Shown here: positions 6,709 through 51,688 of the stretch, in pieces | Numbering within the stretch: the first letter of the stretch is position 1 | Layout of the letters: every line of letters begins with the position of its first letter | NCBI RefSeq assembly: GCF_013004105.1 | Contig: NZ_CP053085.1 | Coordinates: forward strand, 620,001-684,000 | Length of the DNA: 64,000 nt | Source: Gemmatimonas groenlandica | Lineage (GTDB): Bacteria > Gemmatimonadota > Gemmatimonadetes > Gemmatimonadales > Gemmatimonadaceae | Direction of reading: 5' to 3' | Position numbers and translations under genes: made by a program | Notes under the pieces: generated by a model | Database searches by the model: none | Told to the model about the DNA's origin: nothing | The model's input: the letters and a program-made list of their open reading frames with translations, nothing else

Positions 6709-8111
6709 TCCGTCGACGCGACGTCGCGAGGGATCCAGGCCGAGATCGTGGTCCCGACACCGGGCTGCGATTCGGCCTTCACGCTACCCCCATGTGACTC
6801 GGCCAGATGTCGCACGATGGCCAATCCGAGCCCGGTACCGCCGGCCTCGCGTGAGCGACCCGGGTCGGCTCTATAGAACCGTTCGAAAATGCGGGGCAGG
6901 TGCTCGGCCCCGATGCCGGTGCCGGTGTCGCGCACGCCGATCCGTGTTCCGCCCTCATCGATCTGCGAAAAGAGTACGACCTCGCCGGTGGTGGTGTGGC
7001 GCAGGGCATTCTCGGCGAGGTTGCTGAGAATCTGTCGCGCCGCTGTCGGGTCGATATGCAGGTGGCCGGCGTCGGCACCAATCTCGGTGCGCAATACGAC
7101 CCCCTTCGCCGTCGCGGCCGTCTGCAGCGGCGCGAACACCTCGGCGGCAACCGCCGCGATATCGAGATCGATGGGATTGGGCACCCACCCGCCGGATTCG
7201 ATGCGCGACAAGTCGAGCAGGTCGTCCACGATGCGCTGCATGCGACGCACGTTGCCTTCGCACATCGCCAGGAACTGACGTCGCAGCTCCGGGGGCAGCT
7301 CTTCGTCTTGCAGGGTCTCCACGAAGCCGCCGATTACGGTGAGCGGCGTACGCAGTTCGTGCGACACGTTCGCTACGAAATCCCGGCGCACCGCCTCGAG
7401 CCGGCGCACGGGGGTGAGATCGTACAGCGCAAGCACGGCACCACCTCCCGGGAGCGGACGCGCGGTGAGCGAGAGCGTGCGATCGTCAACGCGGACTTCA
7501 TCGGGTACGGCATCGCTGCCGGACAGCACGGCGGCCATGGCTTCGCGCAGGGTACGGTCGCGCGGCAGAAAGTCGGCGGGGAAGGGCACCGGTTCGCGAA
7601 GGCGCAGGAGCTGTCGCGCCGTCTCGTTGATGCGCACCACGCGCTGGCGGGCATCGACGGCGATCACGCCTTCGTTGAGCGATTCGGTGAGGGCCACGAG
7701 CAAGGCTTCTTCGCCGTGCAGGGCCTGCAAGCGGGCCTCGAGCTGTTCAGCCAACCGGCGAAGCGCCTCGGCCAGATCGCCCACTTCCCCACCGGCGATG
7801 GCACGCGACGGACGTTGCGTGAGATCACCGGCCGCGAGACCGCGCGCTACGTCGCGGAGCTCTTCGATAGGACGGGCGACGGGGGCGGCGAGGACCTGCG
7901 CAAGCGCCACACCGACCAGCAAGGCGGCGAGTCCGGCGATCACGATGTCGCGACGCACCTTGGCCAGAAACTCGTCGGCCGAGGCGGCCGCTGTGGGTTC
8001 CTCGGCGCGCACGCGCTCGGTGACGCGTCGTTCCACGGCGAAGAGCACAATGCCGACGAGCAGCGTCGCGACCACGAAGCTGTTCACGACGATGCGTTGC
8101 GCCAGTCTCAT
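6693..8111 (-). CDS. phoR: PhoR-like membrane sensor histidine kinase
   Basis: The protein has 472 residues. TM1 is about 8-26, a short periplasmic loop follows, and TM2 is about 57-76. A HAMP segment spans about 77-130 and a PAS-like domain about 135-235 (NEGVIAVDARQRVVRINETA). HisKA carries the phospho-acceptor H251 in VSHELRTPLT. The ATPase domain has the N box NLAENALRH and the glycine boxes DTGTGIG and GGTGLGLAIV. The short periplasmic part and the PAS domain resemble PhoR, which signals phosphate status through the Pst system. No pst or phoU gene is in the window, so phosphate sensing is a family-based guess. It follows its response regulator by 48 bases. Confidence 0.88.
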   Translation of the reverse strand: MRLAQRIVVNSFVVATLLVGIVLFAVERRVTERVRAEEPTAAASADEFLAKVRRDIVIAGLAALLVGVALAQVLAAPVARPIEELRDVARGLAAGDLTQRPSRAIAGGEVGDLAEALRRLAEQLEARLQALHGEEALLVALTESLNEGVIAVDARQRVVRINETARQLLRLREPVPFPADFLPRDRTLREAMAAVLSGSDAVPDEVRVDDRTLSLTARPLPGGGAVLALYDLTPVRRLEAVRRDFVANVSHELRTPLTVIGGFVETLQDEELPPELRRQFLAMCEGNVRRMQRIVDDLLDLSRIESGGWVPNPIDLDIAAVAAEVFAPLQTAATAKGVVLRTEIGADAGHLHIDPTAARQILSNLAENALRHTTTGEVVLFSQIDEGGTRIGVRDTGTGIGAEHLPRIFERFYRADPGRSREAGGTGLGLAIVRHLAESHGGSVKAESQPGVGTTISAWIPRDVASTDYSEG

Positions 8112-14283: not shown

Positions 14284-15155
14284 GCGAGCGCGCCTTCGAG
14301 ACGCAGTCGTTCGAATCGCAGCAGATGGTGCCGGGCGCGGCGGCCGCGAAGGTGGCCGCCGAGTACATCCGGCAGCGTCTCGGTCCCGACGCGCCGGTGC
14401 CGGTCTGCGGCATCGTGCTCGGGTCGGGGCTGGGTGGGCTAGCGGACCGTATCGAGCGCGCGGTTCGCATTCCGTTTTCGCACGTACCGGGCTTTCCTAC
14501 GGCCACCGTGGCCGGTCACGCCGGACAGCTGTTGGTCGGCATGCTGGGGGGCCGTCAGGTGATCGCGATGGCCGGTCGCTTTCACATGTACGAGGGGCAC
14601 GAGGCGGCGCTGGCGGCGTTTCCCGTGCGGGTGATGCACGCGCTTGGCGCTCGGGTCTATGTGGCCTCGAACGCGGCCGGCGGTGTGCGGCGCACGTTCA
14701 ATCCTGGCGATCTGATGGTGATCTCCGATCACATGAACCTGATGTTCCGCAATCCGCTGTTCGGTGCGGTCGAGCCGGGGGATGAACGCTTTCCCGACAT
14801 GTCCGACCCGTACGACGCCGAGCTGCGGGCGCTGTTGCACGAGTCGGCACGCACCACGGGCGTACCACTGCAGGACGGCGTGTACTGCGGCCTGTTAGGT
14901 CCCACCTACGAAACGCCGGCAGAAGTGCGGATGTTGGAGCGCCTCGGGGTCGATGCCGTGGGGATGTCGACGGTACCCGAGGTGATCGTGGCGCGCGCGC
15001 TCGGTATGCGCGTGGCCGCCGTGTCGTGCATTACGAACAAAGCGGCCGGACTCTCGCTCGAGAAGCTCAATCACGCTGAGGTGATGGAGGCGGGTCGGGC
15101 GGTCGCCGGACGCTTTGAAGCGCTGATTGCCGAGTTCGTAGGGCGCCTGCCGTAG
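14280..15155 (+). CDS. punA: Purine nucleoside phosphorylase
   Basis: It splits inosine or guanosine with phosphate into base plus (deoxy)ribose-1-phosphate. The protein has 291 residues and belongs to the trimeric PNP/MTAP class. Phosphate and sugar sites appear as IVLGSGLGGL, GRFHMYEGH and ASNAAGGVR. Base-binding segments are TYETPAEVRML, VGMSTVPEVIVA and the Asn in SCITNKAAGL. ATGA overlap with add makes it the last gene of the salvage operon. The length and SGLGG pattern fit PunA rather than hexameric DeoD. A convergent M48 protease gene starts its 3' end 24 bases away. Confidence 0.93.
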   Translation: MSERAFETQSFESQQMVPGAAAAKVAAEYIRQRLGPDAPVPVCGIVLGSGLGGLADRIERAVRIPFSHVPGFPTATVAGHAGQLLVGMLGGRQVIAMAGRFHMYEGHEAALAAFPVRVMHALGARVYVASNAAGGVRRTFNPGDLMVISDHMNLMFRNPLFGAVEPGDERFPDMSDPYDAELRALLHESARTTGVPLQDGVYCGLLGPTYETPAEVRMLERLGVDAVGMSTVPEVIVARALGMRVAAVSCITNKAAGLSLEKLNHAEVMEAGRAVAGRFEALIAEFVGRLP

Positions 15156-28497: not shown

Positions 28498-31400
28498 ATG
28501 ATTCGCCGTACACTCTTCCTCTCGATTTCGGCCGCCTGCGCCACGCTTCCACTGGGGCTTTCCGTTGGCGCCCAGGCCAAGCCGGCCGCAGCGCCGGCCC
28601 GGGCCGTTGCCAAGGTCCCAGCGGCGGCGATGATGGCCGCCGCCGACCCGGCCCTGTTCAAGGGTCTCAGCTACCGCCAAGTCGGCCATTCGCGCGGCGG
28701 CCGCGTCACCACCGTGACCGGTGTGCCATCGCAGCCGAAGACGTTCTATGCCGGTGTCGCCAGCGGTGGCGTGATGCGCACCACCAACGGCGGTGAGTCG
28801 TGGGATTTCATCACCGACAACAAGATCCCGCTCGGCTCGACCGGTTCGATCGCGGTGGCGGAGTCGAACCCGAACATCATCTACGTGGGCACCGGCTCGG
28901 ACGGCGTGCGCAGCAACGTGTCCACGGGCCGTGGGGTGTACAAGAGCGTCGACAACGGTGCCACCTGGCAGTTCGCCGGCCTGTACAACGCCGGACAGAT
29001 CGGCGCGGTGCGGATTCACCCCACGAACCCGGACATCGTCTGGGTCGCGGCATACGGCGACATCTTCAAGCCGAACAACGAGCGCGGCATCTTCAAGACC
29101 ACCGACGGCGGCAAGTCGTGGAAGAAGACGCTGTACGTGAGCGACAGCACGGGCGCGATGGATGTGGAGTTGCAGCCCGGCAATCCGAACGTGGTGTACG
29201 CGTGGATGAATCGCATCGAGCGCAAGCCGTGGTCGATCATCTCCGGCTCGCGCGAAGGCGGTTTCTACAAGAGCACGAACGGCGGTGACAGCTTCACCAA
29301 GATGGTGGGTGGCCTGCCGAATCAGATCACCGGCAAGGGCAACCTGGCTGTCACGGCGGCCAACCCGAATCGCATTTACGCGCTGGTCGAAGCGATGCCG
29401 GGCGGTGGTCTGTATCGCTCCGATGATGCCGGTGCGAGCTGGGCGCTCATGAACAGCACGCCGGGGCTGATCACGCGTCCGTTCTACTACACGTCGCTGG
29501 GCGCCGATCCGTCGAATGCCGATGTGGTGTACGGTGGCGCCGAAACGTTCTACAAGAGCACCGACGGCGGCAAGACGGTCGCACCGTTCCGCACACCGCA
29601 CGGTGACAATCACGACATCTGGATCAATCCGACGAACAGCAACACGATGGTGCAGTCGAACGACGGTGGCGCGAACGTGTCGTACGACGGCGGCAAGACG
29701 TGGAGCTCGCAGGATGTGCAGCCGACGGCCGAGTTCTACGGCGTGTGGCTGGACAACGCGTTCCCGTACAAGCTGTACATGGCGCAGCAGGACAACAGCA
29801 CGTACATCGTGCCGAGCAACAACGACCTGTTCAACATGAGCACCGTGCGCACGGGTCCGGGCTGTGAGACGGGTCCGATCATTCCGCATCCGAGCGACCG
29901 GAACCTCATTCACGGCAACTGCAAGGGGCAGTACTCGCTGATGAACGTGGACGCCGGCGTGACGAAGAACTACTGGATCGGCGCGCAGTCGCTGTACGGA
30001 AACGACGGTGGTGATCTCGACTACCGCATGCAGCGCACGACGCCGATGGCGCTGTCGCCGCATGACCCGAAGGTGCTGTACTACGGCTCGCAGTTCCTGC
30101 ATCGCACCCGTAACAACGGCGCGACGTGGGAGAAGATTTCGCCCGACCTCACCTGGTTCCCGAAGTGCTGTCAGGGCGGCAGCGGCGAGCCGATCACGCG
30201 TGACGTGACGGGTGAAGAGTTCTACAGCACGCTGTACGCGATTACCGAATCGTCCCTGGAGAAGGGCGTGATCTGGACGGGTTCGAACGACGGTCCGTTC
30301 TCGGTCACGCGTGACGATGGCAAGACGTGGAAGCGCGTGACGCCGAAGGAGCTGGGTGAAGGCGGCCGTGTGGCATGGATCGAATCGTCGCCGCACCGCA
30401 AGGGCTCGGCCTACTTCGCGACGTATCGCTACCTGCTCGGCGACTACAAGCCGTACATCTACCTCACGAACGATTACGGCAACACGTGGAAGCTGCTCAC
30501 CGATGGCACGAATGGTATTCCCGCCGACGCGCCCACGCGTGTGGTGCGTGAAGATCCCGTGCGCGAAGGACTGCTGTACGCCGGTACCGAGTTCGGCATG
30601 TACATCTCGTTCGACAACGGTGGGCACTGGCAGCCGTTCAACCTGAACATGCCGCAGATCCCGATCAACGATATCAAGGTGTACCGTGGTGACCTGGTGG
30701 TCGCGACGCAGGGTCGCGCCGCCTGGATCATGGACAACATCGCGGCGTTGCAGCAGATCGGCCCGACCACGCAGAGCGAGTCGTTCGTGCTCTTCAAGCC
30801 GCGTGACGGCTACCGTACGACGACCACGCCGCAGCTGCTCGGCCCGACGGTGGACTACTTCCTGGCCAGTGCACCGAACGACACCGTCCGTATCGACATC
30901 GTCGATGCGGCGGGCAAGGTCGTGAACACGTACAAGAGCGGCATCATTCCGCAGGCACCGCGTCCGCGCTTCGGCGGCGGCGAGGATGACCCCGATGAGG
31001 CGATGATGGCGGGACGTGGTGCGCGCCCGACGCTGGTGGCGCCGACGGTGAACCTCGTGACCAAGAACGCCGGTATGAACCGCTTCGTGTGGGGCGTGCA
31101 GCACTCCAACGGACTTGGCTCACCGCCGGGCACCTACACCGCGAAGGTGACGGCCGGTGGCGTCACGAAGTCGGTGCCGCTGCGCGTGCGCATCGACCCG
31201 CGCCTGGCGGCCGACGGTACGACGGAAGCCGACCTGCAGGCGCAGTACACGCACAATCTGAAGATGCGTGAGATGGTGGCCGACGTGAACGCGCTGCTGG
31301 CCCGGGTGCGTACGGCGGAAGCCAAGTACAAGGGCGCCACCGGCGCGGCGGCCGACACGGCCACGAAGGTGAAGGAAGTGAGCGAGATCGTGAACACGCA

Positions 31401-32087: not shown

Positions 32088-32147
32088 CCCATGCTGTCTG
32101 TTCCGCTTTTCTTTCCATTCCCGACCATACCAACCCTTCTCAACACT

Positions 32148-32711
32148 ATGTCGCTTACCCGTACACTTCGTCGCGGCGCTTACGCCGTGGCTGCTCTTTC
32201 CCTGATGACGGTGTCCGCTTCTGCTCAGGGTGGCATGAAGATGGATCCCAAAGCGCCGGCGTCGCCGCGCGATTCCGTAGTTACCACGGTTGCTGGTGCG
32301 AATATCAACGTGAACTACGGCCGTCCGTCCAAGCGTGGTCGCGTGCTGTTCAACGGACTCGGCGACATGAAGTGGGGCATGGTGTGGCGCACGGGCGCCA
32401 ACGAAGCCACGCACTTCACCACGAGCAAGCCGCTGCAGTTCGGTGCGACCCTGGTGCCGGCGGGTACCTACACGCTGTTCACGAAGATCGTCGAGAACGG
32501 CAAGTGGGAGCTGGTGGTGAACAAGCAGACGAAGCAGTGGGGCACGGATTACGACGAGAAGCAGGATCTTGCGCGCATTCCGATGACGGTAACGAGCAAC
32601 AACGCGGTGGTCGAGAAGATGGAGATCATGGTGAAGCCGGCGGGCAAGGGCGGCGAGATCATTGTGGCGTGGGACAATTACAAGGCCGTGGCGGGATTTA
32701 CGGCGAAGTAG
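32148..32711 (+). CDS. DUF2911 exported protein (intact copy)
   Basis: The protein has 187 residues from ATG 32148 (MSLTRTLRRGAYAVAALSLM) with a signal peptide ending at SASAQ. The DUF2911 core is evident: ANINVNYGRPSKRGR, MVWRTGANEATHFTTSKPL, LVPAGTYTLFTKI and MTVTSNNAVVEKMEI. The family is exported, abundant in Bacteroidota and Gemmatimonadota, and of unknown function. The 3' two thirds of this gene and its downstream hairpin recur as a direct repeat at 37410-37859. Confidence 0.92.
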   Translation: MSLTRTLRRGAYAVAALSLMTVSASAQGGMKMDPKAPASPRDSVVTTVAGANINVNYGRPSKRGRVLFNGLGDMKWGMVWRTGANEATHFTTSKPLQFGATLVPAGTYTLFTKIVENGKWELVVNKQTKQWGTDYDEKQDLARIPMTVTSNNAVVEKMEIMVKPAGKGGEIIVAWDNYKAVAGFTAK

Positions 32712-32771
32712 GCGGTAGGGGGTAGGGAGTACGGAGTACGGGGTACGGAGCGAGATCGCTTCGTACCCCGT
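32322..32771 (+). repeat. Direct repeat, left copy (3' part of DUF2911 plus hairpin)
   Basis: From CGTCCGTCCAAGCG at 32322 to the end of the hairpin at 32771 this matches 37410-37859. I count about nine differences in the 390 coding bases. The non-coding tail is more diverged but keeps the same hairpin. The left copy continues upstream into the intact gene. Confidence 0.9.
32738..32771. terminator. Hairpin downstream of DUF2911, left copy
   Basis: ACGGGGTACGGAGCG (32738-32752) pairs with CGCTTCGTACCCCGT (32757-32771) with one G-T pair around AGAT. It is preceded by tandem GTACGGA-like units. The tail TCTGCGTTTC is only weakly T-rich. Confidence 0.6.
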
Positions 32772-32925
32772 TCTGCGTTTCTACTTGGTGCGCGGCAGCA
32801 TTCCTTCCACGGCAGCAGCCGACGGCGATTGGCGCTCCGATGGAAAGCACTGAGTTGCTAGGCTGGCGTTCGCGCCGCATGATATGGCGAGCTCACCCCT
32901 CGCCACGCACTCCGTACAGGTATCC

Positions 32926-33822
32926 ATGTCGCTCCGCATTGAAGGAATCGCGAAGACGTATCCGAACGGCGTACGCGCGCTTCAGGACATCTCTCTTTCC
33001 ATCGCGCCCGGTATGTTCGGGTTGCTTGGCCCCAATGGCGCGGGTAAGTCGTCGTTGATGCGCACGATTGCCACGCTGCAGCCTCCCGATAGTGGATCCA
33101 TTCACTTTCGCAACATCGATGTGCTGAAGGAACCGGAGAAATTGCGGGCGCAGCTCGGGTATCTGCCGCAGGAGTTTGGGCTCTACCCGAACATGCCGGC
33201 CGAGGCCATTCTCGATCATTTTGCAACCCTCAAGGGCGTGGTGCACGCTGGCGAACGAAAGGAACTCGTGGCCGCCCTGCTGAATCAGGTCAACCTGTAC
33301 GACGTTCGTAAAAAGAGTGCCGGCGGCTACTCGGGCGGCATGAAGCAACGGCTTGGCATTGCTATCGCGCTGGCCGGTAGCCCCCAGCTGTTGATCGTGG
33401 ATGAGCCGACCGCGGGCCTTGATCCCACCGAGCGAAACCGGTTTTTGAACCTGCTCGCCGATATCGGGGAGAAGGTCGTCGTCATTCTCTCCACACACAT
33501 TGTCGAAGATGTGCGCGAGCTGTGCTCGCAGATGGCCATCATCAACAAGGGCCAGGTGATCGTCCACGGTGAGCCGGAACGAATCATCGACGAGGTGCGC
33601 GGGCGCATCTGGCGTCGGACGGTGCCCCGTGCTCAGGCCGACGCCTACAAGGCGCGCTACGAGGTCATCTCGACTCGCATGGCGGCGGGCAACACCGTGT
33701 TGCATGCCTACGCCGAGACTGATCCTGGGGACGGGTTCATTGCGATTGAACCCGATCTGGAAGATGTCTACTTCCATCGCCTTGCGGCGGCATCGGGCGG
33801 CCGTGTGCCGGTGGAGGCCTGA
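32926..33822 (+). CDS. ABC transporter ATP-binding protein
   Basis: From ATG 32926 (MSLRIEGIAKTYPNGVRA) it has 298 residues; ATG 32884 in the same frame is an alternative, and TAGGCT at 32859-32864 could be its -10. It shows Walker A GPNGAGKSS, a Q-loop in LGYLPQEFGLYP, the signature YSGGMKQRLG, Walker B LLIVDEP and the switch His in LSTHIVED. The C-terminal 70 residues are a family-specific extension. Its stop overlaps the start of the permease gene as TGATG, so the two proteins form one transporter. The direction, substrate and role are not readable. Gene content between the flanking repeats suggests the pair was acquired together. Confidence 0.93.
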   Translation: MSLRIEGIAKTYPNGVRALQDISLSIAPGMFGLLGPNGAGKSSLMRTIATLQPPDSGSIHFRNIDVLKEPEKLRAQLGYLPQEFGLYPNMPAEAILDHFATLKGVVHAGERKELVAALLNQVNLYDVRKKSAGGYSGGMKQRLGIAIALAGSPQLLIVDEPTAGLDPTERNRFLNLLADIGEKVVVILSTHIVEDVRELCSQMAIINKGQVIVHGEPERIIDEVRGRIWRRTVPRAQADAYKARYEVISTRMAAGNTVLHAYAETDPGDGFIAIEPDLEDVYFHRLAAASGGRVPVEA

Positions 33823-36800
33823 TGTTCGGCACGCTCTTCGCCTTTGAACTGCGAGGCCATTTTCGGCGACCAGCGACGTGGCTGTACGTCGCGATTGTGT
33901 TCCTGTTGGCGTTCTTTGCGATCAGCACCGATGCGGTGCTTGTGGGCCCGGCGCTTGGTAAAGTGAAACGCAATAGCCCGTATGCGCTCGCACAGATGTA
34001 TGCCATCATGCTGGCGATCGGTCAGATCATCACCAGCGCGTTGGTGGGCACCACCGTATTGCGCGACTACGAGGCGGGCGTCCACGAATTGCTCTTCACC
34101 ACGCGCATCACGCGCGCGGGGTATTTGGCGGCCAAGTACGTCGCGGCTTTGATCGCCATGCTGTTGGTGTTCTCCGCGTTGCCGGTCGGCGCGCTGTTGG
34201 GCACCCTGATGCCATGGATCGACGGGAGCACGGTCCAAAGCATCGTACTCTGGCACTACATCCAACCGTTCCTTGCCGTCGGCGTTCCCGGTGTGTTCTT
34301 CATCAGTAGTATGCTGTTTGCCGTGGGCTCACTGACGCGCAGCAGTTTCGCGGTGTACGTCTGTGGCATTCTGCTCTTGGTTGGCTACTCAGTGGCTGGC
34401 CGATTGGTGCAAACGCTCGATCGTGATCAGCTGGCGAACCTCATCGACCCGTTCGCGCTCCGCTCGATCGATCTGGTGACGCGCTATTGGACACCGGTAG
34501 AAAAGAACGCGCGCACATTGCCGCTTGATTCGTTTTTGGGGGCCAATCGGCTGCTGTGGGTTGCAGTCGGTGTCGTGCTGTTGGTAGCGGCATTCCGCTT
34601 CATGCGCCTCGAGAAGGAGGCGCCGGTGACGTCACGGCGAAAAGCGATCAAGGCGGCCGAAAGGGAACGTGTCATGCCAAAGAGCGGCTGGCGACCTCGC
34701 GAGACCTATGCGCCGCCCAGCGCCATCGTCGGCTGGTGGGGTGTGACCACCTTTCATATTCGGTCACTGATTCGTTCCGTGCCGTTTCTCGCGATCGCCG
34801 CGATCGGATTCATCAACGTGCTAATGAGCGCGTGGTTCGCGGACCAGAATGGTCAGAACCGCAGCTGGCCCATGAGCTGGCTCATGGCGGAAACATCGGT
34901 TGGTTCGGCCGCACTGTTCATGGTCGTGTTGTTGACGTTTTACGCCGGTGAGTTGGTCTGGCGCGAGCGGCAAGTGCGGCTCGATCAGGTACTCGATGCA
35001 AGTCCGGTGCGTACTGTCAGCGTCTTGGCAGGAAAGTTCACGGCGATGATGGCGCTCCTGTTCGCGTTCGGCACCGTCGCCATGCTAGGTAGTATGACCG
35101 TGCAGGTGCTCAAGGGGTATCCGGTCATCAACCTTGGCGTGTACGCATTGTACGTGTACGGCACGGACTTTCCAGGCTGGTTCGTGATGGTTGCGCTCGC
35201 GTTTCTCGTACAGTCCCTCGTGCCGCGCAAGCCCATCGGACACGTGATCGTGATCCTGATCTGGGTCGCCAATATCGCGACGGCGAATCTCGGCTATGAC
35301 TACCGACTGCTGCAGATCGCGGCATCTCCGGCCATGCGTTGGTCCGATCTCAACGCCACGGGTCCGTATCTGCAGTCGTTTCTGGCGGTGCATGGCTTCA
35401 ATCTAAGTGTCGCCGCGATCCTGCTGGCGGTCACTTATGTGGTCTGGCATCGGGGAACGGCGATGGCGTCCTTGCGCGATCGGTTGGCCCCCCGGCTTCG
35501 TGGTGGCGTGTCGGCCCTGGCGGCGGGCGGCGCGGTCGGGGCAACCGCGTTTGGCGGCCTGTTTTACTACAACGCGAGCATCGTCAACCCGTACTTCACG
35601 CGGAAGGAAGGGGAGCGCCGGCAAGTCGCATATGAACGCACGTGGCGGCCGCTCGAAACGCTCACGCCGCCAAAGGTCGTGGCCACGTCCATCACCGTGG
35701 ACCTTCAGCCGACGGCCGGCACGGCGCGCACGGCCACCAGTTACACGATGGTCAATCGCTTATCACGAGCGATTGACAGCGTCCTGGTCAATGTTGCGAG
35801 CGATCTACCAGGCCTCGGGGTGACGCTCGATACCCTGCGTTTTGATCGTCCGCATACCGTGCTCAAGGCCGACACCGCCTTCGGTGTTCAACTCGTTCGG
35901 CTCGCCACACCGCTCGCGCCCGGCGACTCGCTGCGCCTTCGGGTCGTGCAACACTATGCCAGGCGCGGCTTCCCGAGCGGGGAGCCAGACCGCTCACTGG
36001 TGGAGAACGGCACGTTCTTCAACCGCGACAAGTTTCCGACGCTCGGGTACGGTCAGGACCAAGAGCTGCAGAGCGACGAGTTGCGCAGGAAGTACAAGCT
36101 TCCGCTGCAGCGCCGCGGAAAGCCGCGCACCGATGTCGTCGCCCTGCAACGGCAATCGTTTTCTCAGGATGCCGACTTCGTTTCGTTCGAGGCAACGGTC
36201 AGCACGGACCCCGACCAGATTGCGATGGCGCCGGGGTACCTGCAGAAAGAGTGGGCAAGCAACGGCCGCCGCTATTTTCACTATGTGATGGACAAGCCGA
36301 TGCCGAATTTCTTCTCGGTACTCTCGGCGCGCTGGACCGTGACGAAGACGATGTGGCGCGACGTGCCCGTCGAGGTGTACCACTATGCAGGGCACACGTT
36401 CAACGTCGCACGCATGCTCGAGGCGTCGAAGGCCTCGCTGGAGTTCTTCTCCAATGAGTTCGGTGTGTATCCGCATCGGCAGCTGCGCATTCTCGAGTTC
36501 CCACGGTACGCGGGTTTCGCGCAATCGTTCCCGAACACCGTCCCATACTCGGAAGCCATCGGCTTCGTGGCCCGCGTCGATTCATCCGATGTGGAGGACA
36601 CCGACTTGCCGTACTTCGTGACCGCGCACGAGATCGCGCACCAGTGGTTTCCGTATCAACGCATGCCGGCCGACGTGGAAGGCGCGCAGATGCTTTCCGA
36701 GTCGCTATCCGAGTACGCTGCGCTCGTGGTCACGGACCGTCTTCACGGGCGCGCCTTTACGCAGAAGTTTCTTCGCGCCGAGCTCGAGCGCTATCTGCGT

Positions 36801-37409
36801 GGCCGTGCGGGTGAGACCAAGGGTGAGCACCCGCTCACCCGCGTGGACCTGCAAGCATACATCTGGTACCAGAAGGGGTCCCTGGCGCTGTTCGCGCTTC
36901 GAGATCTGATTGGCGAGAGTGCACTGCACGGCGCACTGCGCGCGTACCTCGATGAAGGCCGGTTCGCGGGGCCGCCGTATGCCACGACGCTCGACCTCAT
37001 GAAACACATTCGTGCGGCGACGCCAGACTCAATGCAAATGGCGGTCGACGACTATTTCGAGACGATCACGCTGTGGGACGTGAAGACCGATAGCGTGCTG
37101 ACCGCCAAGCAGGCCAATGGGCAGTACAAGGTCACGGTCGTAGGAACCGCCACGAAGTTTCGCGCAGACTCGCTGGGCACCGAGGCACCGGCACCCCTGA
37201 ACGATTATATCGACGTCGGCGTCTTTGCTGCGCCCAAAGCCGGCGCGCGCATTGGCGCGCCGCTGGCAGTTCGCAAGATCAAGGTGACCAGTGGCGTGGT
37301 GCGCGCGGAATTCATCGTCAAGAGCACGCCAGCCCGCGCAGGTATCGATCCGTACAATCTGCTGATTGACCGAGTGCCGTCGGACAACAGTCGCGAGGTG
37401 CGACCATAG
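33822..37409 (+). CDS. ABC-2 permease fused to an M1-type aminopeptidase
   Basis: This 1195-residue inner-membrane protein has an N-terminal half (to about 580) with at least twelve hydrophobic segments in two ABC-2-like sets, the second starting near FHIRSLIRSVPFLAIAA. The C-terminal half is a gluzincin peptidase with HEIAH at 936-940 and a Glu about 20 residues on (E960 in MLSESLSEY). The peptidase part presumably faces the periplasm. The fusion is known in Bacteroidota and relatives as an ABC permease/M1 peptidase family of unknown substrate. Its stop codon TAG (37407-37409) abuts the truncated DUF2911 copy exactly, and that fragment continues in the same reading frame. Confidence 0.9.
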   Translation: MFGTLFAFELRGHFRRPATWLYVAIVFLLAFFAISTDAVLVGPALGKVKRNSPYALAQMYAIMLAIGQIITSALVGTTVLRDYEAGVHELLFTTRITRAGYLAAKYVAALIAMLLVFSALPVGALLGTLMPWIDGSTVQSIVLWHYIQPFLAVGVPGVFFISSMLFAVGSLTRSSFAVYVCGILLLVGYSVAGRLVQTLDRDQLANLIDPFALRSIDLVTRYWTPVEKNARTLPLDSFLGANRLLWVAVGVVLLVAAFRFMRLEKEAPVTSRRKAIKAAERERVMPKSGWRPRETYAPPSAIVGWWGVTTFHIRSLIRSVPFLAIAAIGFINVLMSAWFADQNGQNRSWPMSWLMAETSVGSAALFMVVLLTFYAGELVWRERQVRLDQVLDASPVRTVSVLAGKFTAMMALLFAFGTVAMLGSMTVQVLKGYPVINLGVYALYVYGTDFPGWFVMVALAFLVQSLVPRKPIGHVIVILIWVANIATANLGYDYRLLQIAASPAMRWSDLNATGPYLQSFLAVHGFNLSVAAILLAVTYVVWHRGTAMASLRDRLAPRLRGGVSALAAGGAVGATAFGGLFYYNASIVNPYFTRKEGERRQVAYERTWRPLETLTPPKVVATSITVDLQPTAGTARTATSYTMVNRLSRAIDSVLVNVASDLPGLGVTLDTLRFDRPHTVLKADTAFGVQLVRLATPLAPGDSLRLRVVQHYARRGFPSGEPDRSLVENGTFFNRDKFPTLGYGQDQELQSDELRRKYKLPLQRRGKPRTDVVALQRQSFSQDADFVSFEATVSTDPDQIAMAPGYLQKEWASNGRRYFHYVMDKPMPNFFSVLSARWTVTKTMWRDVPVEVYHYAGHTFNVARMLEASKASLEFFSNEFGVYPHRQLRILEFPRYAGFAQSFPNTVPYSEAIGFVARVDSSDVEDTDLPYFVTAHEIAHQWFPYQRMPADVEGAQMLSESLSEYAALVVTDRLHGRAFTQKFLRAELERYLRGRAGETKGEHPLTRVDLQAYIWYQKGSLALFALRDLIGESALHGALRAYLDEGRFAGPPYATTLDLMKHIRAATPDSMQMAVDDYFETITLWDVKTDSVLTAKQANGQYKVTVVGTATKFRADSLGTEAPAPLNDYIDVGVFAAPKAGARIGAPLAVRKIKVTSGVVRAEFIVKSTPARAGIDPYNLLIDRVPSDNSREVRP

Positions 37410-37799
37410 CGTCCGTCCAAGCGTGGTCGCGTGCTGTTCAACGGACTCGGCGACATGAAGTGGGGCATGGTGTGGCGCACAGGGGCCAACGAAGCCACGC
37501 ACTTCACCACGAGCAAGCCGCTGCAGTTCGGTGCGACCCTGGTGCCGGCGGGTACCTACACGCTGTTCACGAAGATCGTCGAGAACGGCAAGTGGGAGCT
37601 GGTGGTGAACAAGCAGACCAAGCAGTGGGGCACGGACTACGACGAGAAGCAGGATCTTGCGCGCATTCCGATGACGGTAACGAGCAACAACGCGGTGGTC
37701 GAGAAGATGGAGATCATGGTGAAGCCGGCGGGTAAGGGCGGCGAGCTCATTGTGGCGTGGGACAATTACAAGGCCGTGGCGGTGTTTACGGCGAAGTAA
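37410..37799 (+). pseudogene. Beheaded DUF2911 copy
   Basis: The frame from 37410 reads RPSKRGRVLFNGLG onward and is about 98% identical to the intact gene at 32148, but lacks the signal peptide and about the first 58 residues. It begins directly after the ABC/M1 gene stop codon and has no start of its own, although an internal GTG (37431) keeps a frame of 122 residues. Without a signal peptide an exported domain would be misplaced, so I treat it as a remnant. Substitutions such as ATC to CTC and GGA to GTG separate it from the intact copy. Confidence 0.8.
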
Positions 37800-37825
37800 G
37801 CGGTACGAAGTACGGGGTACGAAGC

Positions 37826-37859
37826 ACGGGGTACGGAGCGCAATCGCTTCGTACCCCGT
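37826..37859. terminator. Hairpin, right copy, between DUF2911 remnant and carbonic anhydrase
   Basis: ACGGGGTACGGAGCG (37826-37840) pairs with CGCTTCGTACCCCGT (37845-37859) around CAAT. It could end transcription from both sides, since the carbonic anhydrase gene on the minus strand stops at 37881. Confidence 0.6.
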
Positions 37860-37880
37860 ATCTGTCCACGCGATGCGTGC

Positions 37881-38514
<634 letters not shown>

Positions 38515-38528
<14 letters not shown>

Positions 38529-40239
38529 TGGTCCGTCTCCGCTTCCGGTAGTTTTGCGACTTGTTGTGGAACTGCTTGAACTCGATCGCGATCTGCTTGT
38601 GGGGCGCTCCCTCCTGGAAGTCCGCAATCACGTCGTACAGGTCGCTGTCGATGAAGCTGGCCCGCGTGCCGTCGACGATCAGACTCGACTGTGTGGGTAG
38701 GGAGGCGAGTTTGGCCTTGAGCTCAGACTTGTTGACGAACGACGCATCCTTGTTGAAGCGCAGCAGATACATCGACTCCTGATGCACCAGTGTGAACGCC
38801 GAATGGTGATTCGTCCGGATCACGAAGATCACGCCGAACACCACGCCAATCAGCACGCCGATCAGCAGATCAGTGAAGACGATTGCAATGACCGTCACGA
38901 TGAACGGGAGGAACTGATCAACGCCCGCCTTCCATGAATCGCGGTACAACGCGGGTTTGGTAAGCTTGTAGCCCACCATCAGAAGCACCGCAGCCAGACT
39001 GGCCAGCGGGATGCGATTGAGGAGGCTCGGTATCGCAACAACGCACACGAGCAGGAGGACTCCGTGAATGAAGGCGGACCACCGCGATCGGGCTCCGGCG
39101 TATACGTTGGCCGAACTCCGCACAATCACCGCGGTGACCGGAAGACCGCCAATCAGTCCGGCCGCGATATTTCCCACACCTTGGGCCATTAGTTCACGGT
39201 CCGGATTGGAGATCCGTCGCTGCGGATCCAGCTTGTCGGAGGCTTCGAGCGAGAGCAAGGATTCGATACTCGCCACAATGGCGAGCGTCAGGCCGGTGGA
39301 GTAGATCCGGCGGTCCGTCCACCGGGACCAGTCAGGACCGGATAATTGCGCAAGCAGGTCAGTCGGCCCCCCTGCCGGTAGCGTCACCAGATGGCCGTCT
39401 TCGGCGCGCAGGAAGAAGTCGGGCGAGATGGTGCGGAACAACTCGTTCAGCAGGATGCCAACCGCCACGACGATGAGCGCGCCGGGGACCATCGCGAGCG
39501 ACTTGCGTGACTTAATCCACGGGGACTCCCACGCGAGAAGGATCGCGAGGGAGACGACCGAAATGAGAATAGCCTCTCCGTTCGCGGATACGACGGCATC
39601 CGCCACATCGGAGAGCGTTGTTGACGCTCCATCCGCCGAGCGGAAGAAGTCGAAATCTCCCTCGTAACTGGTGTCACGACCGAGCGCATGCGGAATCTGC
39701 TTGAGGATGATGACCACGCCGATCGCGGCCAGCATCCCCTTGATCACCGCGTTGGGCACATAGTTGGCAATGCGACCCGCACGCAGAAACCCGAAGCCCA
39801 CTTGCGCCACGCCTGCCACCAGCACCGCCAGCAGAAAGGCGGGGAAGGAACCGAGCGATTGAATGGCCGTTGCCACGATTACGGCGAGGCCTGCGGCCGG
39901 TCCACTCACGCTCACCGATGATGCGGAAAGCATCGAGACGATGAGTCCGCCAATGATGCCCGAAATGACGCCGGAGAAGAGCGGCGCTCCGGAGGCGAGC
40001 GCGATGCCGAGGCAGAGCGGTAGCGCCACGAGGAAGACGACGAGTCCGGCTGGCGCGTCGTGCGACCACGACACCTTCCCGCTATAGGACGAGACTACCG
40101 ATTCACGAGGTGATGTCATTGAGTGAGGAGAAGATGGTCGCGAGCTGGCAGACAAACCGCCGAGGCCTACCGCTTGGCCCATGGCGTTCGGTGCGCCTAC
40201 GGCATCCGGTGGCGTACCGTTGTGCTCTGGAGTGGTCAC
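38515..40239 (-). CDS. SulP-family anion transporter with STAS domain, probable bicarbonate importer
   Basis: A 574-residue inner-membrane protein. After a Ser/Pro-rich N-terminal tail of about 55 residues come ten or more hydrophobic segments from [22 protein letters not shown] onward, with the SulP signature [16 protein letters not shown]. The C-terminal STAS domain (about 475-550) has [21 protein letters not shown]. SulP proteins carry sulfate, bicarbonate or dicarboxylates. The overlapping carbonic anhydrase gene points to bicarbonate or CO2 supply (inference). GTG 40239 gives the full frame; ATG 40119 (MTSPRES) is a credible shorter start. The C-terminus is unusually basic (YRKRRRTNG). 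Confidence 0.9.
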
Positions 40240-51300: not shown

Positions 51301-51688
51301 TGTACATGCCATCACCGACCGCGAGATCGGGACGGATGATGCCGGCGCCGCTGCCCACGTAGATGACGTTCGGATTCGACGGGGCGACCGCGATCGCCCC
51401 GATGGAGCCGGTGGGCTGGTCGTCGAATAACGGCACCCAGTTCGAGCCGTAGTCGGTGCTGCGCCACACGCCGCCGTTGTCAAAGCCGGCGTAGAACACA
51501 CTCGGCTGCGAGGGCACTCCGGATAGGGCGCGCGCACGGCCGGCTCGGAGGGGACCGATAGCGCGCCAATGCAGCGCGCTCAAGCCCGAATCAGTTTGCG
51601 CGGGGAGCACGCGCGCGATCGGTGAGAGCGCCGTCGCGAGAGAAAGCGCGAACGAGCAGCGGGCCTGCAGAGAGCGCGGGATACGCAC
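48362..51688 (-). CDS. Exported sortilin/VPS10-like BNR-repeat protein (second copy)
   Basis: A 1108-residue protein starting with GTG at 51688 and a signal peptide ending near RVLPAQT. The BNR/Asp-box strands are frequent (STDYGSNWVP, SIDNGKTWAHL, SLDGGASFQRV, STDGGTTWKQL, TEDGGLTWSAV, SGNRGASWSNW, TNGGTSWKNV). A C-terminal part (about 820-1000) has a carbohydrate-module-like region, with RFTWDLHF and GRYTVRLTANGTTYEQPLTLRLDPR, and then a helical tail. The overall plan equals the protein at 28498 but the sequences are clearly different. It heads the operon with DUF305 and LVIVD genes. No hydrolase catalytic site is evident. Confidence 0.85.
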   Translation of the reverse strand: MRIPRSLQARCSFALSLATALSPIARVLPAQTDSGLSALHWRAIGPLRAGRARALSGVPSQPSVFYAGFDNGGVWRSTDYGSNWVPLFDDQPTGSIGAIAVAPSNPNVIYVGSGAGIIRPDLAVGDGMYKSIDNGKTWAHLGLRESQMIAMVDVDPKNPDRLFVAALGHPYGPNTERGVFRSLDGGASFQRVLYKDEYTSANDVRIDPQNPDIVYATLWQQQQSFIEGQGFGGGGNGIFKSTDGGTTWKQLTVGLPSVLQANIAFAPGNSKVLYAMVAAAPPAGSAAGASGPIGFYKSTDAGEHWFLAVNGPGSTVGAAPKFVDNRPLARIGGGDLPTITVDPSDENVVYSASTVMWRTEDGGLTWSAVRGAPGGDDYQKIWVNPNNPDLIFAVADQGAVVSGNRGASWSNWYTQPTAAMYHVTTDNAFPYRVCSGQQDSGSACVNSRSDDGRITFHDWHPVNIQEYGIAAPDPRDPDVVFGSQRTNVSKYDRRTGQTVLVGPDLSVRGPKGENFGRNVRTMPLHFSPVNPDVLYYASNVVWKTLDRGQSWTRISPDLARQTWDVPATAGKYSSAVTPAPAGAITALSPSPRSASVLWAGTDDGQVQVTTNGGTSWKNVTPSALKAWTRIYNIDAGHFDAGTAYIAANTFRLDDLRPHFYRTHDAGATWTEISNGLPGNAPANAIREDPKVKGLLYGATDTQVWVSYDDGDHWESLRIDMPAIAVRDLQVKDDSTCLCSDLIAGTHGRGFYILDNITPLRQMAASRAAVAARNAYLFKPATAVRVRFATNDPTPWPPEMPSGESAPSGVFIDYMLAAKASSPIALEILDATGKLVRSYSSAQKALDPHPYIDRARYNEVCKKTPTAPYCGLPLYWPGPPQALSDDAGLHRFTWDLHFDPVTPEDAIPQGDDDATGAVPGRTLPVVNAPWAPPGRYTVRLTANGTTYEQPLTLRLDPRVKTPAAGLARLHALSTEMYRGAVETHRAFVSARAVVTQLNAMSGADVDALKAQLEAVAPSSATARNIRGFRRRGATTTAASLESASTAMLAAAMAMHNADVAPTSTQVAACSAARAMGVDVLPKWNALRTTGIAAFNAKRKAAGLPTLTLP

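Follow-up and report, generated by a model that had tools for sequence, protein, structure and literature searches.

In the genome of the freshwater organism Gemmatimonas groenlandica (one contig of 5,179,092 bases) we analyzed a stretch of 64,000 nucleotides (NZ_CP053085.1, positions 620,001 to 684,000), hereafter the window, which supplies the coordinates used below. The 3' part of a gene of the DUF2911 family and its terminator hairpin occur twice in this window, in the same orientation, on either side of a module of two genes, one for an ABC transporter ATPase and one for a fusion protein that joins an ABC-2 permease to an M1 metallopeptidase-like domain. We favor, at barely better than even confidence, the explanation that DNA carrying a DUF2911 end and the module was integrated through its homology to the resident gene, either as a circle or as a linear piece that was homologous at one side. 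The locus is probably the scar of ordinary DNA uptake. In the following, L and R denote the left and right repeat copies, G000 the genome of the window, and G005 and similar handles its relatives, most of which are represented by incomplete draft genomes.

The repeated gene end and the enclosed module

A BLAST comparison of the window with itself aligned positions 32322-32775 with 37410-37864 (455 aligned bases, 95.8% identity, E = 0), and this pair was the sole direct match of more than 60 bases inside the 64 kb. The coding part of L runs on the plus strand from codon 78 of the open reading frame (ORF) to its stop (32322..32711), and that of R occupies 37410..37799 on the same strand. They differ at 9 of 390 bases, which is in agreement with the initial annotation of two equally oriented copies with about nine changes. 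These changes are spread over eight codons, of which five are altered synonymously, two lead to amino-acid changes and one is a stop codon. L forms the last part of a DUF2911 gene that is intact (32091..32711, plus strand, taken as the longest ORF; PF11138, E-value 1.5e-41), the real start of which is perhaps the ATG at 32149, as judged by eye from a signal-peptide-like stretch. R is beheaded, as the annotation had it, and matches PF11138 from profile position 21 on only. Measured against a cut-off of 27 bits, the intact copy scores 142 bits and the beheaded copy 122.4 bits; R is probably without function. DUF2911 genes were matched at E ≤ 1e-45 in 23 of the 29 same-genus relatives, and comparison of DUF2911 with solved structures gave no match.

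Between the two copies lie the ABC transporter ATPase gene (32884..33822, plus strand; PF00005, E-value 3.9e-30; start possibly the ATG at 32927) and the permease/M1 fusion (33822..37409, plus strand; PF12730 and PF01433). The ORF list and the matches to PF00005 and to ABC2_membrane/Peptidase_M1 bear out the annotated content of the insert, namely these two genes and nothing else. Compared with solved structures, the M1 part showed weak matches to endoplasmic reticulum aminopeptidases 1 and 2. As had also been noticed from the sequence, R begins at 37410, the base directly after the TAG of the 1195-aa permease/M1 ORF, and continues in the same frame. The insert is thus enclosed by direct repeats of a homologous segment, one copy of which is partial. 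A carbonic anhydrase gene (37881..38627, minus strand; PF00484) marks the right edge of the event.

The terminator behind L is a strong palindrome (32712..32775, plus strand, its limit taken from the self-comparison), and the sequence 32709-32790 folds at -42.4 kcal/mol with a z-score of -5.28. Its counterpart behind R (37800..37864, plus strand) stands before the carbonic anhydrase gene, an arrangement that some relatives share. The hairpin is more diverged between L and R than the coding part, and directly past it the two flanks are unlike each other. At the left junction (32776..32883, no strand assigned), a short stretch that looks like a terminator arm precedes DNA unique to G000 upstream of the module; among the 30 genomes of the genus this junction DNA had one other match, of 27 bases in G029 (E = 0.0075). 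By eye, the stretch CGTTTCTAC behind L resembles the outer arm of the DUF2911 terminator of relatives. L's arm is like that in G011, G015 and G028, and R's flank leads into carbonic anhydrase like that in G014 and G024 (both by eye). A search for the hairpin that allowed up to three mismatches located it at no place other than the DUF2911 locus, and there in 4 of the 30 genus genomes. Elsewhere in G000 there are 17 short matches to the terminator region (29-64 bases, 73-97% identity), showing that related sequences are dispersed. A dispersed repeat as recombination substrate is a secondary possibility, given that the hairpin itself was seen at the DUF2911 locus alone, yet has dispersed relatives.

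Repeats of this kind are rare in the genome. In a survey of 1.192 Mb sampled from the 5.18 Mb, from which pairs with starts less than 300 bp apart were left out, this was the only direct repeat of at least 150 bp and at least 85% identity whose copies start between 300 bp and 25 kb from each other. The eight other repeat pairs listed for the sample measure 46-138 bp. Two arrays of tandem units longer than 150 bp (G000:C1:971785-973247 and 3325067-3325768), with a period of about 255-260 bp, lie outside the surveyed spacing. The window also contains an inverted match of 180 bases (72.8% identity) between 28718-28896, in a sortilin-like gene, and 51347-51522, which is probably a paralogue.

The DUF2911 locus and the module in related genomes

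The downstream side of the DUF2911 gene could be read in 21 other genomes of the genus, at 23 loci in all; this count leaves out the locus of G007 (L039), a parallel case described below, and that of G012 (L040), at a contig end. Gene order was assigned from matches of at least 35% identity at E ≤ 1e-10, and the part concerning the module was repeated without an identity limit at E ≤ 1e-5. The sample of relatives is small and is drawn entirely from other species. The usual order is a sortilin-like gene, TerB (at 16 of the 23 loci), DUF2911 and GGT, and at 19 of the 23 loci the gap between DUF2911 and the next conserved gene is about 300 bp or less. At none of the 23 loci does the module follow DUF2911, also at the relaxed threshold. 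Sites with one DUF2911 copy and no module, which the initial annotation had proposed to look for, are therefore what these relatives have; the same count speaks against the annotation's contrary scenario, in which close relatives have both copies and the module throughout.

Other DNA is found behind DUF2911 as well. Four of the 23 loci (L041, L044, L059 and L063) bear inserts other than the module, of 2.7 to 5.1 kb. A carbonic anhydrase and a SulP gene stand between DUF2911 and GGT in the window, in G014, in G024 and on two of three contigs of G015; on one G015 contig the carbonic anhydrase lies behind a 2.7-kb insert. The pair (37881-40239 in the window) is present only in some close relatives and its GC content at third codon positions (GC3) is low, like that of the module; the pair may itself go back to an earlier insertion here. 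The three contigs (L041, L042 and L043) of G015, a single metagenome-assembled genome, display three states of the locus: one has carbonic anhydrase/SulP, another has these plus the 2.7-kb insert, and another has neither. They may reflect a strain mixture or several copies.

Two relatives show comparable structures with cargo of their own. In G007 (L039), the DUF2911 gene is intact and has about 3 kb of other cargo behind it, which encodes among other things an O-antigen-ligase-like protein (PF04932); past the cargo comes a second, beheaded DUF2911 copy. This copy starts at GTCCAAGCG, 5 bases inside the point at which R starts in the window (CGTCC/GTCCAAGCG); by our own estimate, the chance that two edges in a gene of about 600 bp agree within 5 nt is about 2%. 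The two G007 copies (L039, 8397-8782 and 11864-12249) have one difference in their first 285 bp and 26 in their last 101, a mosaic that would need two alleles to have met or an exchange at a later time. In G011 (L044), the DUF2911 terminator is present in two identical copies of 40 bp that enclose other cargo; the edge is unlike that of G000 and G007. Acquisitions accompanied by a copy of the target's 3' end thus appear in three cases at DUF2911, two of which have the same edge to within 5 nt.

Further shortened copies were considered and rejected. Among the 24 genus genomes with DUF2911, the only other N-terminally short copy is that of G012 (G012:C16); this copy borders on the end of its contig, and over its first 90 bases it looks, by eye, like part of GGT. 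Among the matches listed for 298 genomes of the phylum, the other frames shorter than 150 aa are G011:C129 and G199:C397, and both are at contig ends.

The module itself is not restricted to this place. It was searched for throughout 31 genomes, which include 18 of the 29 same-genus relatives. Relatives of the ABC ATPase with 81-87% identity over most of the length are located at other places in nine other genomes of the genus, and full-length homologues of the permease/M1 fusion (66-74%) in seven. At the eight module loci with flanks, the surroundings mostly differ among relatives; they are the same in G006 and G009, and about 2 kb on the upstream side is common to G013 and G016. DUF2911 was absent from all 13 module-bearing stretches that we examined, so that the module was not seen there beside other DUF2911 ends, a check proposed with the initial annotation. 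The permease/M1 protein matched eight plasmid records at E ≤ 1e-30, all below 60% identity, which argues against a near plasmid donor. The GC3 of the module (0.75-0.77) is indeed below that of the neighboring amidohydrolase, sortilin, TerB and GGT genes (0.81-0.87), a comparison suggested with the initial annotation, but DUF2911 and carbonic anhydrase/SulP have similar values (0.75-0.78), and GC3 alone therefore does not mark the module as foreign.

Proposed integration by homology and its alternatives

A tree built from the 390-bp segment joins L to R as sister sequences (support 100/99) and likewise groups the two G007 copies together. This means that the event is younger than the split of G000 from the relatives in the tree, and each pair would have arisen, or been homogenized, within its own lineage. 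Compared with 12 relatives, L is nearer than R to ten, and R is nearer to G028 and G029. Specifically, R shares the base at position 32658 with G028 alone and that at 32531 with G028 and G029, while L agrees with the rest of the 12. Five of the seven changed sense codons are synonymous, which would be odd for a drifting pseudogene. Taken together, the flanks, the shared bases and the synonymous changes suggest that L and R are two alleles, R being the old end of the host gene. The two-allele status, the direction of transfer and the choice between circular and linear DNA are what we infer from these observations.

On our preferred explanation, a DUF2911 end with its terminator, followed by the ABC/permease-M1 module, would have arrived on DNA whose source lineage was that of the host or one very close to it, and this DNA would have paired by homology with the resident DUF2911 gene. 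A circle could then have entered by a single crossover inside the 450-bp homology. Alternatively, a linear piece could have recombined at its DUF2911 part, its far end being joined illegitimately, with the M1 stop codon brought against codon 78. In either case the left gene would consist of the 5' part of the host gene and the incoming 3' end (L), with the module next to it, and R would be the host's old 3' end, severed from its start and still beside carbonic anhydrase. The right junction, from the M1 stop to codon 78, offers a two-base overlap at most: TAGCG is found at the module stop in G005, G006 and G009 too, which makes an overlap of CG possible. The homologous junction would lie inside DUF2911. 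Since DUF2911 stays intact after such a hit, insertions in the place behind it would be tolerated, and the genus would have received them there more than once. The G000 genome encodes a ComEC homologue, and DNA uptake would thus be possible.

The initial annotation had proposed a circle that entered by a single crossover. The structure of the locus, the module-free sites and the presence of the module elsewhere all fit that proposal, but a linear piece would give the same product, and the circle is accordingly no more than plausible. A hint at circles comes from a unit of five genes that is cyclically permuted between relatives, with the order g9-g8-ABC-M1-g10 in G006 (L106, 5157-13515) and ABC-M1-g10-g9-g8 in G005 (L104, 8340-16503). 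At the site that this unit occupies in G005, G016 holds just about 1.5 kb of other DNA.

Several observations weigh against integration by homology. A donor arrangement, in which the module follows DUF2911 and no beheaded copy is present, was not found at the 23 readable loci, which are a small sample. The two alleles differ by just 2.3%, and the evidence for different lineages consists of few sites, with gaps in nearness of at most five bases. The flanks separate the haplotypes poorly, for L042 of G015, which bears carbonic anhydrase, also has L's terminator arm; the sign of two haplotypes given by the flanks is weak for this reason. An edge that two genomes have in common to within 5 nt is not predicted by homology-driven integration, and for the near-identity of the G007 copies over their first 285 bp one has to assume gene conversion or a further event. 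The parallel cases moreover come from fragmented metagenome assemblies (G007, 79% complete with 5% contamination; G011, 91% and 1%), and short repeats are where such assemblies err. The permuted unit of G005 is not flanked by any repeat detectable by BLAST at E 1e-3, and the permutation can also come from tandem duplication and deletion.

The initial annotation had named as its alternative a local duplication into which the module was copied, and local template switching is indeed a serious rival, possible in our estimate although we hold it only tentatively. In the course of repair or replication, a polymerase that had copied DUF2911 together with its terminator would have changed to module DNA as its template and returned at codon 78, so that the 3' end was copied twice, with the palindromic terminator as the fragile spot. 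Neither a donor in which DUF2911 and the module are linked nor a circle is needed for this. The strong palindrome at the site, the sister relation of L and R and the possible CG overlap at the right junction are in line with it, the 40-bp terminator duplication of G011 follows a like logic, and the arm of L042 means that both copies could stem from one locus. What local copying accommodates less readily is that the flanks of L and R differ right past the hairpin, that the differences between the copies are mostly synonymous, with R having two bases in common with G028 against most others, and that the G007 copies combine a part that is nearly identical with one that is strongly diverged, in the manner of a mosaic.

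Integrases that target genes usually keep the hit gene whole by means of a replacement end. If codons 78-80 of DUF2911 were an attachment site, an integrase-less cargo with a replacement gene end could have been inserted by a recombinase acting in trans. Such a mechanism would account for two genomes having, behind two unrelated cargoes, beheaded copies with starts at CGTCC/GTCCAAGCG that lie at most 5 nt apart, and for the hit gene being kept whole by a replacement 3' end. We nevertheless regard it as doubtful. The third case, in G011, has another edge, and the further N-terminally short DUF2911 copies (that of G012 and, among the matches listed, G011:C129 and G199:C397) are all at contig ends. 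No relative of R was found in viral contigs, and none of the DUF2911 gene in phage records. No recombinase family was matched in the two-gene insert of the window, nor among the scanned insert ORFs, three in G007 and four in G011. The whole genome has three matches to PF00589, the nearest about 190 kb away, in a search that did not extend to transposases and serine recombinases. The annotated lack of an integrase or transposase agrees with the result for the insert. As to the integrative unit with its own replacement gene end that had been suggested, the edge of G007, 5 nt off, is in its favor, but the insert lacks a recognizable recombinase and the PF00589 genes are distant, and we lend the idea little weight. 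In a more general form, the 3' part of DUF2911 could be a recurrent landing site in Gemmatimonas, near codon 78, for small units of cargo without an integrase that would move as circles and have a DUF2911 end as their sole integration sequence, acting through host recombination or a recombinase in trans; this too seems improbable to us.

That the arrangement is an assembly artefact, or that the copies are unrelated old paralogues, we consider extremely unlikely. The genome of strain TET16 of G. groenlandica is described by its authors as a gap-free hybrid PacBio/Illumina assembly (PMC7844134), which makes the artefact envisaged alongside the initial annotation unlikely; the copies also differ at many positions and have different flanks. 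Old paralogues are at odds with the position of L and R as sister sequences in the tree.

Comparable systems and further module loci

By analogy, the DUF2911 event would be of a kind that is already known from the displaced gene ends of rhs loci and of type VI secretion system (T6SS) loci. In rhs loci, C-terminal ends are displaced by incoming ones and kept as dissociated tips, for which homologous recombination with circular intermediates has been proposed (Jackson et al. 2009, PMC2935791). The likeness lies in the displacement of old gene ends by incoming ends; that work presents the rhs tips as variable alternatives (PMC2935791), whereas the two ends here encode nearly identical proteins and what is gained is the cargo behind them. 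For the T6SS effector/immunity arrays of Vibrio cholerae, homology-facilitated illegitimate recombination was offered as a putative mechanism (PMC5361080). There, as proposed for the linear variant here, one end is anchored by homology and the other is illegitimate, and old 3' parts have been moved behind a new module; in contrast to the arrays described there (PMC5361080), the window locus is without an effector/immunity logic, and its remnant looks functionless. In V. cholerae, a genomic island is similarly situated within a conserved gene, recA, of which it supplies a divergent copy (PMC4405046). The microcin H47 island of Escherichia coli resembles the present insert in being small, without a recombinase of its own and associated with extensive imperfect direct repeats (PMC3191183). 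Its excision and integration were detected by experiment (PMC3191183), whereas the DUF2911 locus is known from sequence alone. Literature listings for Gemmatimonas combined with genomic islands and horizontal gene transfer contained nothing on the DUF2911 locus, and a full-text search with DUF2911 yielded a single paper, which by its title deals with a metasecretome.

For a phylum of which few species have been cultured, the locus would clearly illustrate, through a young event, the entry of a small transporter/peptidase unit that lacks its own recombinase and spares the gene it targets. That three such cases, two of which come from draft assemblies, are found at a single gene within one genus suggests that certain gene ends may be hot spots for gains. 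From the 450-bp repeats one would also predict that recombination can remove the module again.

Additional module loci in relatives showed features of their own. In G009, the module lies downstream of an SDR-like gene (L105, G009:C19), and 3'-end pieces of this gene recur twice just past the M1 stop (6914-7165 and 14959-15122 delimit the positions concerned); a 54-bp piece of the region behind is found further on. These repeats are real, the region is complex, and the close relative G006 is without them. Between the SDR-like gene and the module unit, the stretch L105 14820-14940 has by eye the look of an IS3-type transposase remnant. Finally, three loci (L112 on G016:C5, L115 in G018 and L116 on G009:C166) carry the ABC ATPase without its permease/M1 partner, in a context that is partly shared; beside the lone ATPase of G016, only a short M1 tail was matched.

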